Source of the DNA: Streptomyces sp. NBC_01460
GTDB taxonomy: Bacteria; Actinomycetota; Actinomycetes; Streptomycetales; Streptomycetaceae
NCBI RefSeq assembly: GCF_036227405.1
Contig: NZ_CP109473.1
Span: 2,294,001 to 2,358,000 of the forward strand
Length of the DNA stretch: 64,000 bases
Reading direction: 5' to 3'
In this document: piece by piece, positions 1 through 4,645 of the stretch
Position numbering within the stretch: the first letter of the stretch is position 1
Layout of the letters: each line of letters starts with the position of its first letter
Notes under the pieces: generated by a model
Told to the model about the DNA's origin: nothing
What the model saw: the letters and a program-made list of their open reading frames with translations, nothing else
Database searches by the model: none
Translations under genes and position numbers: made by a program

Positions 1-1451
1 GCCACATGGGCCGCGGCGGCGGCCCGGAACGCGGCACGGCGGGTCTCCCGGTCGGCCGCGGGGTCCTCCATCGCCGCGACGAAGGCCGGCATCTCGGGGG
101 TGACGACGCGCATCGCCTCGGTGCGGCCGTGGCGGTACTGCCGGGTGGCGATGGACTCGTACGTCGCCCCCAGGTGTCCCTTGGCGCGCTGGTGGGCCAG
201 TTGGTAGGCGACCTGGACGAAGGCGTCCGGGGACACCTTGAGCGCCTTGGCCGCCGTGCTGCCGAAGTCCTGGAAGGACACCGTGGTGGTGGCGGTGTCC
301 CGTCCGTACGCGGCGAACGACTCGGCGGCGGCGCGCACCTGGGCCCTGAGGGGCTCGTCCAGCTCGAAGGTGAGCGGCTGAGGGACGGGTTCGCCCTGGG
401 AGCGGGCGCCGGAGCGGAGGGAGTGCTCCTCGGGCGAGGTGCCGAGCAGCGCGTCGGTGAAGCTGAGGATGGTCGTCCCGTCCAGCTCGCAGTGCTCGAC
501 GTTGATGCCGGCCCTGCCGTCCGCGTGGACGACGAAGGAGACGGCCTTGTCGAACCAGCGGTTGCCGCGGTCCCCGTGGAGCAGTTCGTCGCAGGCCTCC
601 TGGGTGCCGGCCGGGGCGAAGTCCTCCAGGCAGACGCAGAACAGGGCGGTCTCGATGTCGTCCAGCGTGCGGGCGTTGCCGGGGTGGCCTGCGGTGAGGG
701 ACGCCCGGGTGGCGGCCCATTCCGCCCGTGCCGTCGTGGTGAGGTGGCCGGCCCGGTCCTCCTCGGCCGTGTGGACGTCGGCCTTGGTCACGGCGCGCAG
801 CCCGGCCTCGATCTCGTCGAGGCTGTGGGGGACGCCGTCGGGGCCGAGCACGTCGAGCCGGAACATGGTGCCCCGGAAGAACACCACGATGTGCCGGGCC
901 GTGGACGGCCCGGGCTCCTGCTCGCTGTACGGGGCGCGCACGGTGTCCAGCGGCACACCGGGGATGCGCGTCGTGGAGAAGAGGTACCTGTTCTGCACCA
1001 TCGACTGGGGTACGCCGCGCTGCTCCACCGGGGCGATCAGGCCCTCGTCGAGCTGCCGTTTGTAGTGCAGGGCCCCCGCGACGAGCCCGGCCGCCCGGTC
1101 GAGCTGCCCCTCGCCGGTGTCCTTGAACAGGAAGAAGAAGTTGGCGTTGAGGGCGATCCGGTCCCGGCGGCCGAGGTAGCGGTACGGCCAGAAGGTGTCG
1201 AGCCAGCTGTGCACGCCCTCCGTCGCGTCGTACTCCTCCAGCGCCGCGTGCAGGGTCCGGCCGGGGCCGCCGGGCCGCAGGAAGGCGGTGACCTCGGCCT
1301 CCGTCTCCGCCCGTTCCTCCGCGGTCAGCAGCGGGGCGCACCAGGCGAGGAACCGCTCGCAGCTCGCCTCGAGCGTGGGCAGCGGCACGCGCGGGAGGGT
1401 GCCCTCACGGGCGAAGGTCGCGTCGGCTGCTGCTTCCTGACTGACGTTCAA
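1..1451 (-). CDS. Choline/carnitine O-acyltransferase family protein (3' end outside window)
   Basis: Family enzymes move an acyl group between CoA and the hydroxyl of carnitine, choline or a similar amino alcohol. 483 codons are visible; the gene leaves the window at base 1. I see TTRIPG near residue 180, the catalytic-His signature GINVEHCELDGTT with the His near residue 320, and a C-terminal stretch YESIATRQYRHGRTEAMR typical of the family. I place the start at a TTG at 1449-1451, behind a purine-rich GAGAAGAGAG; an in-frame ATG is missing. It starts 35 nt after the methyltransferase gene, so the two are probably cotranscribed. Bacterial members are uncommon and the true acceptor is unknown. 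Family call secure, substrate open. Confidence 0.85.
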   Translation of the reverse strand, partial: MNVSQEAAADATFAREGTLPRVPLPTLEASCERFLAWCAPLLTAEERAETEAEVTAFLRPGGPGRTLHAALEEYDATEGVHSWLDTFWPYRYLGRRDRIALNANFFFLFKDTGEGQLDRAAGLVAGALHYKRQLDEGLIAPVEQRGVPQSMVQNRYLFSTTRIPGVPLDTVRAPYSEQEPGPSTARHIVVFFRGTMFRLDVLGPDGVPHSLDEIEAGLRAVTKADVHTAEEDRAGHLTTTARAEWAATRASLTAGHPGNARTLDDIETALFCVCLEDFAPAGTQEACDELLHGDRGNRWFDKAVSFVVHADGRAGINVEHCELDGTTILSFTDALLGTSPEEHSLRSGARSQGEPVPQPLTFELDEPLRAQVRAAAESFAAYGRDTATTTVSFQDFGSTAAKALKVSPDAFVQVAYQLAHQRAKGHLGATYESIATRQYRHGRTEAMRVVTPEMPAFVAAMEDPAADRETRRAAFRAAAAAHV

Positions 1452-1486
1452 TGCGGCTCTCTTCTCGGTGAGTGGGGATGGGGGGT

Positions 1487-2293
1487 CTAGGGGTGCTGCG
1501 GCCGTGAGAGGTAGAGCTGAGCGTAGAGCCAGCCGTCCTCCTCCAGACCGCTCGCGTCCACGCCGGCGGCGGCCATGCCGTCCAGGACGCCGCGCTGTTC
1601 CTCCGGGCCCGCGAACCGCCGCTGCTTGAAGACCTCGTCGACCCGGACGGTCCGGTAGCCCAGCTCCGCCAGGGCCTTCCCGACGGGGTCGAAGGGGAAC
1701 ATCCGCAGCACGAAGTGCGCCATCCAGGGGAGGCGGCCGTCCTGGGCCCGCACGACGCGGATGAGGGTGCGTTCGGTGACGTAGCCGATGCAGCCCGTGG
1801 AGATCACCAGGTCCGTCCCGGCGAGCAGGTCCCGCTGCTCGGGGGTGGGGTCGTTCGCCTCCAGGTCCGCGTGGACGGTGTCGTCGAGGAAGCCGGCTTC
1901 GTGCGCGTAGGCCAGGGCGCTGGTGGAGGCGTCCAGGCCGGTGAAGCGCAGACCGTGTGCGGGGCGGCGGGAGCGGGAGAGGTCCCGGTCACGCTCCAGG
2001 AGCGCGGCGCGGGAGGCGGGGCCGCTGCCGTCGTAGCGCGCGTACAGCTCGTCCATGGTGGCGTCGTACTTGAGCAGGGCGGCGTTGATCCCGTACGAGC
2101 AGCCGATGTCCAGGATCCGGGGGACGGCCACCTGTTCCGTCTCCCGGTACTCCTTGATGAGCTTGTCGAAGTAGGGCTTGGCCAGTTGGGGGACGCGGTA
2201 GCCGAGCGGGCGGAGCGCCTGGAAGTACGTGCGGGGGTCGGGCGCGGTGTAGATGTGGTCCAGCGAGACTTTTCCTGACGCGTCGAGACGCAA
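1487..2293 (-). CDS. Class I SAM-dependent methyltransferase
   Basis: A 268-residue predicted cytoplasmic methyltransferase. Motif I is ILDIGCSYGINAALL (about residues 60-75), followed by an acidic post-I strand FTGLDAS and a motif-IV-like region DLVISTGCIGYV, which together form the S-adenosylmethionine pocket. The start is TTG at 2293, with GAGGAG about 8 nt upstream; no better start lies in frame. It sits between the Fe(II)/2OG oxygenase (71 nt upstream) and the acyltransferase (35 nt downstream), all on one strand, suggesting one small-molecule pathway. The substrate cannot be read from sequence. N-methylation of an amine would fit an acylcarnitine-like product, but that is inference. Confidence 0.82.
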   Translation of the reverse strand: MRLDASGKVSLDHIYTAPDPRTYFQALRPLGYRVPQLAKPYFDKLIKEYRETEQVAVPRILDIGCSYGINAALLKYDATMDELYARYDGSGPASRAALLERDRDLSRSRRPAHGLRFTGLDASTSALAYAHEAGFLDDTVHADLEANDPTPEQRDLLAGTDLVISTGCIGYVTERTLIRVVRAQDGRLPWMAHFVLRMFPFDPVGKALAELGYRTVRVDEVFKQRRFAGPEEQRGVLDGMAAAGVDASGLEEDGWLYAQLYLSRPQHP

Positions 2294-2364
2294 GGGGCTT
2301 CTCCTCGGTGGGGCGCGCGTGGGGGTGCCTGGAACCGTTCGTCGTGCTGGTGCCGGGAGGGGCT

Positions 2365-3234
2365 CTAGTCCAGCAGCCCGTCGCCCCGCACGGCCCGGCC
2401 CTCCGCCGCCAGGTGTCCGGGCAGTACGCGCCCGAAGAGCTGCCGGGTGCGCGCCACGCTCCCGATGACGCCGGGGCGCTCGCTGTAGGCGAAGATCGCG
2501 CTGTGGCGTGCGAGGCCGCCCCGGACGGGGCTGACCCGGTGCAGCGAGTAGCGGCCCTTGAACAGCTGCAGGTCGCCCGGCCTCAGGGGCAGGCGTTCCG
2601 GCTGCCGTGCGGGGCGGCCGTCCAGGACGTCCCGCACGTCGTCGAAGCGCTCGTCCTCGGCGGACCTGATGTTCGGGCAGTACTCGAAGGAGCCGCCCTC
2701 CTCCGCCTCCTGGGTCAGCATGCTGACCGTGTACTCGTTGGTGTCGAAGTGCCAGGGGTGCTCCATGCCCGGCCGTACGACGTTGAGCACGAGCCCGGAG
2801 AGCGGGTCGGCGAGCTCGTACAGGCGGGGCAGGGTGAAGCAGTCGGCGACGAACCGCTGGAACGGTTCATGGGCGTAGAGCCTGCCGATGAGGGAGTCCC
2901 CGGGGATGCGGTCACGGGCGACGAACGCGTTGCCGCGCTCGAAGGTGCGCCGGCCGGGGTGGTCCTCGGGCAGCTCCGTGTCCACGTCGATGTTGTAGAC
3001 GTTGACCGTCTCGACGTCGAAGTAGGCGTGCGGGGCGAGCGCGGCGCACTCCTGGCGCAGGGCCTCGTGCAGCGCGGGGCGGACGAAGTCGGGGAGGACG
3101 GTGCAGCCGTCCTCGGCCAGTTCGCGCCGCGCCCGTGCCACCACGGCGCGGGCCGCGGTGCCTTCGGGGTCCGACAAGGGGTAGCGGTCCGTGTCGACCA
3201 TCTGGTCGAGCGTGATGGCTTGCAGAGTGCTCAT
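2365..3234 (-). CDS. Fe(II)/2-oxoglutarate-dependent oxygenase
   Basis: A 289-residue oxygenase. The facial triad is visible as H162-F-D164 within HPWHFDTNEY and H232 within YSLHRVSPV; R243 (LARHSAIF) is well placed to bind 2-oxoglutarate. The HFDTN...SMLTQ neighbourhood recalls the BesD/HalD amino-acid halogenase and hydroxylase group, but this protein has Asp where halogenases have Gly, so hydroxylation is the expected reaction. I chose ATG 3234 because GGAGAGGG lies 4-11 nt upstream; an ATG 29 codons earlier has no such site. First gene of the probable operon with the methyltransferase and acyltransferase. Substrate unknown. Confidence 0.82.
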   Translation of the reverse strand: MSTLQAITLDQMVDTDRYPLSDPEGTAARAVVARARRELAEDGCTVLPDFVRPALHEALRQECAALAPHAYFDVETVNVYNIDVDTELPEDHPGRRTFERGNAFVARDRIPGDSLIGRLYAHEPFQRFVADCFTLPRLYELADPLSGLVLNVVRPGMEHPWHFDTNEYTVSMLTQEAEEGGSFEYCPNIRSAEDERFDDVRDVLDGRPARQPERLPLRPGDLQLFKGRYSLHRVSPVRGGLARHSAIFAYSERPGVIGSVARTRQLFGRVLPGHLAAEGRAVRGDGLLD

Positions 3235-3293
3235 TCGACCCTCTCCACGCGCACGTCGGTAACTCAACTGACGAGTAACAGAGTTGAAGTTCC

Positions 3294-3308
3294 CACAGCA
3301 CTGCTGTG
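3294..3308. promoter_or_regulatory. 15-bp perfect palindrome upstream of the oxygenase operon
   Basis: CACAGCA-C-TGCTGTG is a perfect inverted repeat in the 141-nt gap between the SUMF1-like gene and the oxygenase start, about 60 nt upstream of the oxygenase ATG. A second, looser repeat, AACTC (3261-3265) with GAGTT (3281-3285), lies nearer the start. This gap is also more A/T-rich than the surroundings. The arrangement suggests the operon promoter and a dimeric repressor site; no regulator gene lies next to it. Confidence 0.4.
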
Positions 3309-3375
3309 TTGTCTGTGACACGCCACACGTGCGGACCGTGTGTGCGGTGGCCGGGCACCTCTCCGGCCGTACCCG

Positions 3376-4182
3376 TCAGTCGAGGTCGATGACGGGGCGT
3401 GCGGAGAAGTCCTCGAACATGTCCTCGCCCTCCGGCCCGTGGAGGAAGTCGGCCGTGTGCGGATTGCGGTTGGCGGTTGCCAGCGGCAGCCATTCGAGCA
3501 GGGTGCCGTAGCCACCGCAGACCGCCTCTCCCCCGTCGCCGCCGTATACGGAACCGGGGTCCGAGGTCATCTCGGCGCTGTCGTAGACGTCGAAGGCGAT
3601 GTGCAGCCCGAAGGCGTTCGGCAGGAGGTGCGGGCCCGTGCCGCCGCCGTAGGGGGACACGCCCGCGGGGTAGCCGTCGCCCCAGCGGAAGAGTGTCCCG
3701 GCGCCGGCTCCGCAGGCGTGTTCCCACTCGTCGGGGCGGGGCAGCCTGAGCCCTTGGCCGGCGAACAACGCCGTTACGAGAGAGGGGAGTTCGGGGAGCT
3801 TCCTCGGCTCCACCGCCATCAGTACGGCGGGCAGGGTGACCTTGCGCCGCGGGGTCATCACCCGCGCGAGGTGGGCGCGGGGGTCGGTCTCGAAGCCGAA
3901 GCCGCCCGCGAGGCTCTCCTCGCGGTAGGAGGTGAGCTGGCCGGGGAGCGGCCGCCACCCGTCCATGTCGAAACCGACGGTCACGTCACCGCCCGGGACC
4001 AGGGCGTACCGCTCGCCGTCCCGCTCGATCACGGCGCGGTGCACGGCGCCTTCCGGGTGCGGGGCGGGGTCGAGGCGCAGGAGGCGGCCGCCCGCTCTGC
4101 CTGCCGCCTCCCGCGCGCACCGCTCGGCGGAAGCCGCGTCCAGGGCGCGCCAGCGGGCGAGGGTCAGGCCGGCGAGAGACAT
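3376..4182 (-). CDS. SUMF1/formylglycine-generating-enzyme-like protein
   Basis: A 268-residue protein with an FGE-sulfatase-like core: ALVPGGDVTVGFD (about residue 60) and the hallmark-like LRLPRPDEWEHACGAG followed by LFRWGD (about residues 150-175). The usual C-terminal RGGSW and GFR elements are absent, so the fold may be shortened or adapted, and classical Cys-to-formylglycine conversion is doubtful. SUMF1 domains also occur in ergothioneine-type EgtB enzymes, but no DinB iron-binding half is present here. ATG 4182 is chosen because the N-terminus is coherent from there; no strong ribosome site is seen. Same strand as the oxygenase operon, 141 nt before it, so possibly part of the same set. 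Confidence 0.65.
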   Translation of the reverse strand: MSLAGLTLARWRALDAASAERCAREAAGRAGGRLLRLDPAPHPEGAVHRAVIERDGERYALVPGGDVTVGFDMDGWRPLPGQLTSYREESLAGGFGFETDPRAHLARVMTPRRKVTLPAVLMAVEPRKLPELPSLVTALFAGQGLRLPRPDEWEHACGAGAGTLFRWGDGYPAGVSPYGGGTGPHLLPNAFGLHIAFDVYDSAEMTSDPGSVYGGDGGEAVCGGYGTLLEWLPLATANRNPHTADFLHGPEGEDMFEDFSARPVIDLD

Positions 4183-4256: not shown

Positions 4257-4526
4257 TCAGCGGCCGTGGCGGATCAGGGCACGGACCATGCGGCAGGTGG
4301 TGTCGGACGGCGGGTGGATGGCGAGACGGTCGGCCGCCTCGCGTATCCGGGCGTTGTGGGCGCTCGACGGCTGGTACACGCCGGTGTCGAGCAGGGCGAT
4401 CGCCAGGCGCATGGCCTTCAGTCGGCGGTTGTGCGAGACATACCACTCGCGGGGCCGGCCCGCGGGGAGCCGCTTCTTCCGCAGGGGCTTGTGGAGCGGC
4501 TCGGGTGTGGCTGTGGCGACGGCCAT
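4257..4526 (-). CDS. Small conserved-looking protein of unknown function
   Basis: An 89-residue basic protein with no domain I recognise. AGGAGG at 4533-4538 sits 6 nt before ATG 4526, which fixes the start and argues for a real gene; the in-frame TTG at 4532 abuts the same site. The sequence has a Lys/Arg/Pro-rich N-terminus and a helical C-terminal half (LKAMRLAIALLD, ARIREAADRLAI) ending in RHGR. No membrane segment or metal motif is seen. It lies between the SUMF1-like gene and the divergent ArsC-like gene. Confidence 0.6.
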   Translation of the reverse strand: MAVATATPEPLHKPLRKKRLPAGRPREWYVSHNRRLKAMRLAIALLDTGVYQPSSAHNARIREAADRLAIHPPSDTTCRMVRALIRHGR

Positions 4527-4645
4527 CGGCAACCTCCTGGCGCAGTGGTGGAACCCTCACGAACTCCCTCCATCCTACTGCCCCCCACTGACAATCGCCC
4601 CTGGCCAGAGGCCATTTCGAGGGTCACTCCCGTACCCTTGGCCCC

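Follow-up and report, generated by a model that had tools for sequence, protein, structure and literature searches.

Three adjoining genes at the left end of a 64,000-nucleotide stretch of the Streptomyces sp. NBC_01460 genome (G000:C1:2294001-2358000, within 8.8 Mb; hereafter the window) encode an Fe(II)/2-oxoglutarate (2OG) oxygenase (OXY), a class I S-adenosylmethionine (SAM)-dependent methyltransferase (MT), and a member of the carnitine/choline acyltransferase family (CAT), and they are real genes which form one operon. In the reading that we favour, at a probability of about 0.55, they constitute a self-contained cassette for the hydroxylation, usually the methylation, and the O-acylation of an acid that would be neither carnitine nor a lysine held in the manner of BesD. 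OXY would hydroxylate a small carboxylic acid, most likely an amino acid, MT would methylate the substrate or the product, and CAT would acylate the new hydroxyl with a short group taken from a thioester of pantetheine, probably coenzyme A (CoA), giving an O-acylated, usually methylated, hydroxy acid; the order of these steps and the substrate itself are weakly indicated. A first-pass annotation of the window had described the HxD...H motif of the oxygenase, the SAM methyltransferase, and the catalytic His of the acyltransferase, all on one strand with short gaps, and these families and sites are borne out.

Conservation and co-inheritance of the three genes

The arrangement is kept across genera, and chance neighbourhood was therefore rejected. 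Proteins of the CAT family (PF00755) are rare in the phylum, being found in 5 of 246 actinobacterial genomes, one of which holds only a fragment. Among 295 Streptomyces genomes, CAT occurs in 33 and OXY (E <= 1e-30) in 32, and in every one of the latter OXY adjoins CAT on the same strand at a distance of 201–1300 bases, which amounts to 963–1300 bases in the 25 genomes with MT in between (in two frames in one of them, G482) and to 201–510 bases in the seven without it. The 33rd Streptomyces CAT (G310) is 32% identical and belongs to another cluster (L070:3413-9558), where this divergent acyltransferase is flanked by a class III aminotransferase on one side and two methyltransferases on the other and has CPT2 and COT as its best PDB matches.

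In a second sample, the best 80 of 215 CAT relatives, selected by CAT and referred to as the named loci, all 80 contain OXY, truncated in one of them at a contig end, and 76 also contain MT; the gaps have medians of 31 and 43 bases. Since the first sequence of the query came from Nocardia, 63 of them belong to that genus, with seven from Streptomyces, five from Actinomadura, and the remainder from Amycolatopsis, Saccharopolyspora, Actinokineospora, and metagenome-assembled genomes named Frankia and Pseudonocardiaceae. The pairwise protein distances of the three genes are correlated (OXY–MT 0.93, OXY–CAT 0.89, MT–CAT 0.90) in a set of 79 complete loci, two of these being duplicates of another row. 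In Streptomyces specialis, MT and CAT are joined in one open frame of 902 aa (L012, L087, and L181 being copies of this one gene), and the Nocardia genome G643 carries a second, divergent trio (L240:8961-12487; OXY 52%, MT 45%, and CAT 56% identical to those of N. carnea), in which MT and CAT again share one frame, here of 888 aa. These fusions support the two enzymes as steps of one pathway.

In a sample of 98 Nocardia genomes, CAT is present in 97 (as split frames in two, truncated at contig ends in two) and OXY in 96, both being counts of presence, not of adjacency. CAT, rare in the phylum, is thus almost universal in this sample, and the genus as a whole would seem to maintain a small-molecule pathway for which no description was found. 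The first-pass annotation knew of no described pathway with this gene trio, and none was found in the open-access literature either, most subscription journals lying outside the scope of the search; as far as the searches show, each enzyme comes from a known family or fold, while the pathway as such is undescribed there.

An all-against-all comparison of 35 loci, in which genes can be missed because of the GC filter of the gene caller, returned no gene for transport, regulation, or an assembly line that accompanies the cassette in distantly related genera. Apart from the trio, the only genes shared beyond the Nocardia-like genera, Streptomyces, or Actinomadura were protein kinases (13 loci), one family found in 3 of the 35 loci at more than 4 kb, and scattered pairs. 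Since no further gene was found to travel with the cassette, its starting point would be a common metabolite. The same result would suit a cassette without a dedicated product, which modifies a compound and thereby inactivates or stores it, as in detoxification or acyl buffering, and near-universality in the Nocardia sample suggests such a housekeeping role. The patchy occurrence in Streptomyces (33/295) is unlike a housekeeping function in that genus, however, and a hydroxylase as the first step fits synthesis equally well, and we regard inactivation or storage as distinctly improbable. Of similarly low probability is a more far-reaching version of the favoured cassette, according to which Actinobacteria, and Nocardia almost universally, would make an acyl carrier of their own in place of carnitine, namely a small acid, hydroxylated and usually methylated, onto which a modified carnitine acyltransferase would load short acyl groups reversibly; if that were true, bacteria would have in this product their own equivalent of carnitine. 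Given its small size, the unit of three enzymes could be expressed as a whole, and knowledge of its substrate could lead to a new C–H hydroxylase of free acids as well as to a carnitine acyltransferase whose acceptor is new.

Active sites of the oxygenase and the acyltransferase

OXY scores 51.1 bits against PF23169, the family of HalD/BesD-type oxygenases (curated cut-off, 26), and has the BesD/HalB/HalD fold, its nearest fold relatives being lysine/ornithine halogenases and a lysine hydroxylase. Residues H162, D164, H232, R243, H159, and R100 are unchanged in 110/110 aligned rows. With D164, the iron site reads HxD, in contrast to the HxG of the halogenases BesD, HalA, HalB, and HalD, where Gly stands for Asp (the contrast is drawn with the halogenases, not with the 7JSD sequence). 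The earlier assignment of the oxygenase to the BesD group was upheld in this hydroxylase form, and family chemistry together with the conserved residues argues strongly that OXY hydroxylates. It is longer than the members of the BesD/Hal group (289 against 251–264 residues) and, unlike them, always adjoins an acyltransferase in the Streptomyces sample. The genome of the window holds two further HalD-family oxygenase genes, at G000:C1:6318158 and 7423731.

The first-pass annotation had proposed a route on which hydroxylation, N-methylation (taken here as trimethylation), and O-acylation could convert a lysine- or ornithine-like amino acid, as in the BesD group, into an acylated hydroxy-betaine such as an analogue of acylcarnitine. 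The nearest fold relatives of OXY are in its favour; the amine-binding residues are not. In BesD, according to PMC13244439, the amine is held by E123, D143, and D239. E123 aligns to L145 of OXY in 106 of the 110 rows (two have Tyr and two Phe) and D143 to T165 in all 110, whereas D239 could not be aligned, which means that both amine-binding acids of BesD that could be aligned are replaced. The closest known systems are the BesD/HalA/HalB/HalD halogenases and the BesD-like lysine hydroxylase of PF23169 (PDB 7JSD). On the carboxylate side of the pocket, BesD H137 corresponds to the invariant H159 (110/110) and R77 probably to R100 (110/110), in a stretch which aligns ambiguously; W241 was not aligned.

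The full CAT matches PF00755 with 541.9 bits over all 574 positions (cut-off, 22.3), and its catalytic His320 is kept, along with Y431, T444, K402, D409, and E432, in 109/109 rows, from which two unlinked bacterial relatives (L009 and L070) were excluded. Like human carnitine acetyltransferase (CrAT) and choline acetyltransferase, it has the full-length domain, the catalytic His, one CoA lysine, the D430/E453 pair, and the Ser-Thr-Ser motif, and all 109 rows keep the equivalents of CrAT Tyr452, Thr465, Phe566, K423, D430, and E453. Transfer of an acyl group by CAT is thus strongly indicated by family chemistry and conserved residues. CrAT Arg518, which we take to bind the carboxylate of carnitine, is replaced by Gln (Gln497) in 109/109 rows, whereas the excluded relatives L009 and L070 have Arg at this position. 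Met564, which presumably limits acyl length, is replaced by Phe (Phe548), likewise in 109/109, and this suggests a short acyl group. A literature search for the parts played by Arg518 and Met564 gave no result. Of the CoA lysine pair K419 and K423, whose roles are described with those of H343, D430, and E453 in PMC11852590, only K423 is kept (109/109).

The carnitine-like acceptor fares no better than the lysine-like start. The kept equivalents of Tyr452, Thr465, and Phe566 in the carnitine pocket do speak for an acylcarnitine analogue, as does an Arg at the carnitine-carboxylate position in the second Nocardia trio; the uniform Gln of the cassette CATs, the Leu and Thr in OXY, and the several lineages without MT speak against it, and we hold this route to be rather improbable. 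The sequence of 2OG-dependent hydroxylation, methylation, and O-acylation does resemble eukaryotic carnitine biosynthesis (TMLH and BBOX, with the carnitine acyltransferases), from which the cassette differs in having no aldolase or aldehyde dehydrogenase and an altered acceptor site; TMLH and BBOX presumably belong to a 2OG oxygenase family other than that of OXY.

The methyltransferase

The AlphaFold model of MT (predicted local distance difference test score, pLDDT, 90.9) has the class I methyltransferase fold, and the glycine-rich motif reads DIGCSYG; a sequence search for a solved relative of MT returned none that was convincing. Family chemistry and conserved residues support, with moderate confidence, that MT methylates. 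Enzymes that methylate N, O, and C are all found among its structural matches, JHAMT and trans-aconitate methyltransferase being examples of the O-methyltransferases, which leads to another reading of the Gln in CAT: if MT were a carboxyl (or hydroxyl) O-methyltransferase, CAT would act on an acceptor with no free carboxylate, the Gln in place of Arg in 109/109 rows would be accounted for, and the product would be an acylated methyl ester or ether. The Gln is also kept in cassettes without MT, however, and C- and N-methyltransferases fit the MT fold equally well or better, which leaves this reading unlikely.

It has to be noted that several observations weigh against the cassette that we favour, as a complete unit or in its chemistry. 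The fold of MT does not discriminate between N-, O-, and C-methylation. The adjacency of the three families predicted in the first-pass annotation holds in Streptomyces, Nocardia, and other actinomycete genera, but only in part for MT, which is missing from 7 of the 32 Streptomyces cassettes (and split in one more) and from 4 of the 80 named loci; in five Nocardia loci among the latter, other genes interrupt the cassette, and the Nocardia genome G638 has CAT with no OXY at the above threshold. The K419 position of CrAT, that of one lysine for the CoA 3'-phosphate, is occupied by Thr, Ser, Ala, Gly, or Gln in 109/109 rows of CAT, so CoA is not certain as the donor. Finally, the 109 and 110 rows are unique strings, some genes being represented twice because they were fetched more than once.

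In a CAT tree of 90 rows, the label "without MT" requires four changes, at least three of them forced by supported branches, with gains or losses counted. With MT found in the remaining 79 rows, loss offers the most economical explanation, and the core of the cassette would then be OXY and CAT. Methylation looks like a tailoring step in the favoured cassette, since MT is missing from several lineages.

A paralogue elsewhere in the genome may replace the missing MT in trans. An MT of 39–45% identity is found elsewhere in 7/7 genomes with an MT-less Streptomyces cassette, against 52/262 genomes without CAT (Fisher p 1.8e-5) and 3/25 with the complete cassette (p 3.6e-5), a marginal hit in G418 being left out, and two more MT-less Streptomyces also carry such a paralogue. 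On the other side, the MT-less Amycolatopsis anabasis has none, the genomes compared are related, with at most eight MT candidates scored per genome, and the inspected neighbourhoods of the paralogue differ.

The wider MT family (35–45% identical) occurs in 63/295 Streptomyces genomes (L071–L077), in surroundings that differ where inspected; in L073 the paralogue precedes an eCIS-core-domain gene. In the MT-less Streptomyces cassettes L078, L080–L083, L188, L197, and L198 (L197 and L082 being one genome), a divergent 2,4-dienoyl-CoA reductase (FadH-like) gene and a PadR regulator adjoin OXY. The MT at G350:C90:1607-2425, which contains an internal TGA, stands alone in a genome with no OXY or CAT match, and it and the MT in two frames at G482:C15:99347-100143 may be either decaying copies or sequencing errors.

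Second acyltransferases in Nocardia and the genes around the cassette

A second full CAT is found in 7/98 Nocardia genomes. Six of these proteins, 50–53% identical, lie within a conserved cluster (L241–L246, e.g., L242:9824-15558) together with a major facilitator superfamily (MFS) transporter, an MppP-like pyridoxal phosphate (PLP) enzyme, and a D-2-hydroxyacid dehydrogenase. The seventh, from the second trio of G643, groups with the other six with weak support and keeps the His; Arg occupies the 518 position in each of the seven. The best PDB matches of the PLP enzyme are 6c3a, which we take to be RohP, and MppP (5dj1). The cluster hints at guanidino-acid chemistry near the CAT branch of the cassette, whose own substrate is not fixed thereby. 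An arginine-derived hydroxy acid as the acceptor of the cassette would fit such a cluster, yet in 6/6 cluster homologues the catalytic His is replaced by Glu (EHC to EES), no OXY or MT match was found in the fetched stretches of the cluster, and the PLP enzyme reaches 181 of the 450 bits required by the MppP model. The chemistry of the cluster may therefore differ from that of the cassette, and we consider an arginine-type acceptor very doubtful.

In the window (Table 1), OXY and MT are separated by 71 bases and MT and CAT by 35, and the TTG starts read earlier for both downstream genes were kept, plausible ribosome sites being present. The closest relatives at the protein level likewise come from Streptomyces. 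An NCBIfam search of OXY, MT, and CAT gave no match for any of them, and the name "arpA protein", used in source annotations, gave no lead. The genes left of base 1, which might have placed the acyltransferase in another known cluster, do not do so, the next gene being a convergent glutamine synthetase.

Table 1. The cassette and the adjoining upstream gene, in window positions
Feature	Position	Strand	Remarks
OXY, Fe(II)/2OG oxygenase	2365..3234	minus	289 aa; ATG start; site of the hydroxylase type (HxD...H); opens the cassette
MT, class I SAM-dependent methyltransferase	1487..2293	minus	268 aa; TTG start
CAT, carnitine/choline acyltransferase family	1..1451; final 361 bases left of the window (G000:C1:2293640-2294000)	minus	603 aa; TTG start
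Weakly FGE-like protein, upstream	3376..4182	minus	PF03781, 15.0 bits (cut-off, 23.3); probably outside the cassette

On the right follow the weakly FGE-like gene, a gene for a 91-aa protein, others, and then a second glutamine synthetase. Surroundings differ between genera, with glnA/glnII in many Streptomyces and hisE/hisG-like genes in Nocardia, and a function read from the glnA/glnII neighbours was rejected because Nocardia and other genera have different ones. The FGE-like gene was likewise rejected as a fourth member, since among 130 loci it is confined to near Streptomyces relatives (L090, which is the window itself, L091/L086, L092, L094, L095, and L097). A Pyr_redox_2 gene, NDH-2-like by eye (Pfam was run on L145 only), separates MT from CAT in four Nocardia loci (L145, L146, L153, and L155) that belong to one clade, and in the related L176 a similar gene separates OXY from MT; both were judged incidental to the cassette. 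The 91-aa protein (window 4257-4532) has no Pfam match and is found near the cassette in many Streptomyces loci.

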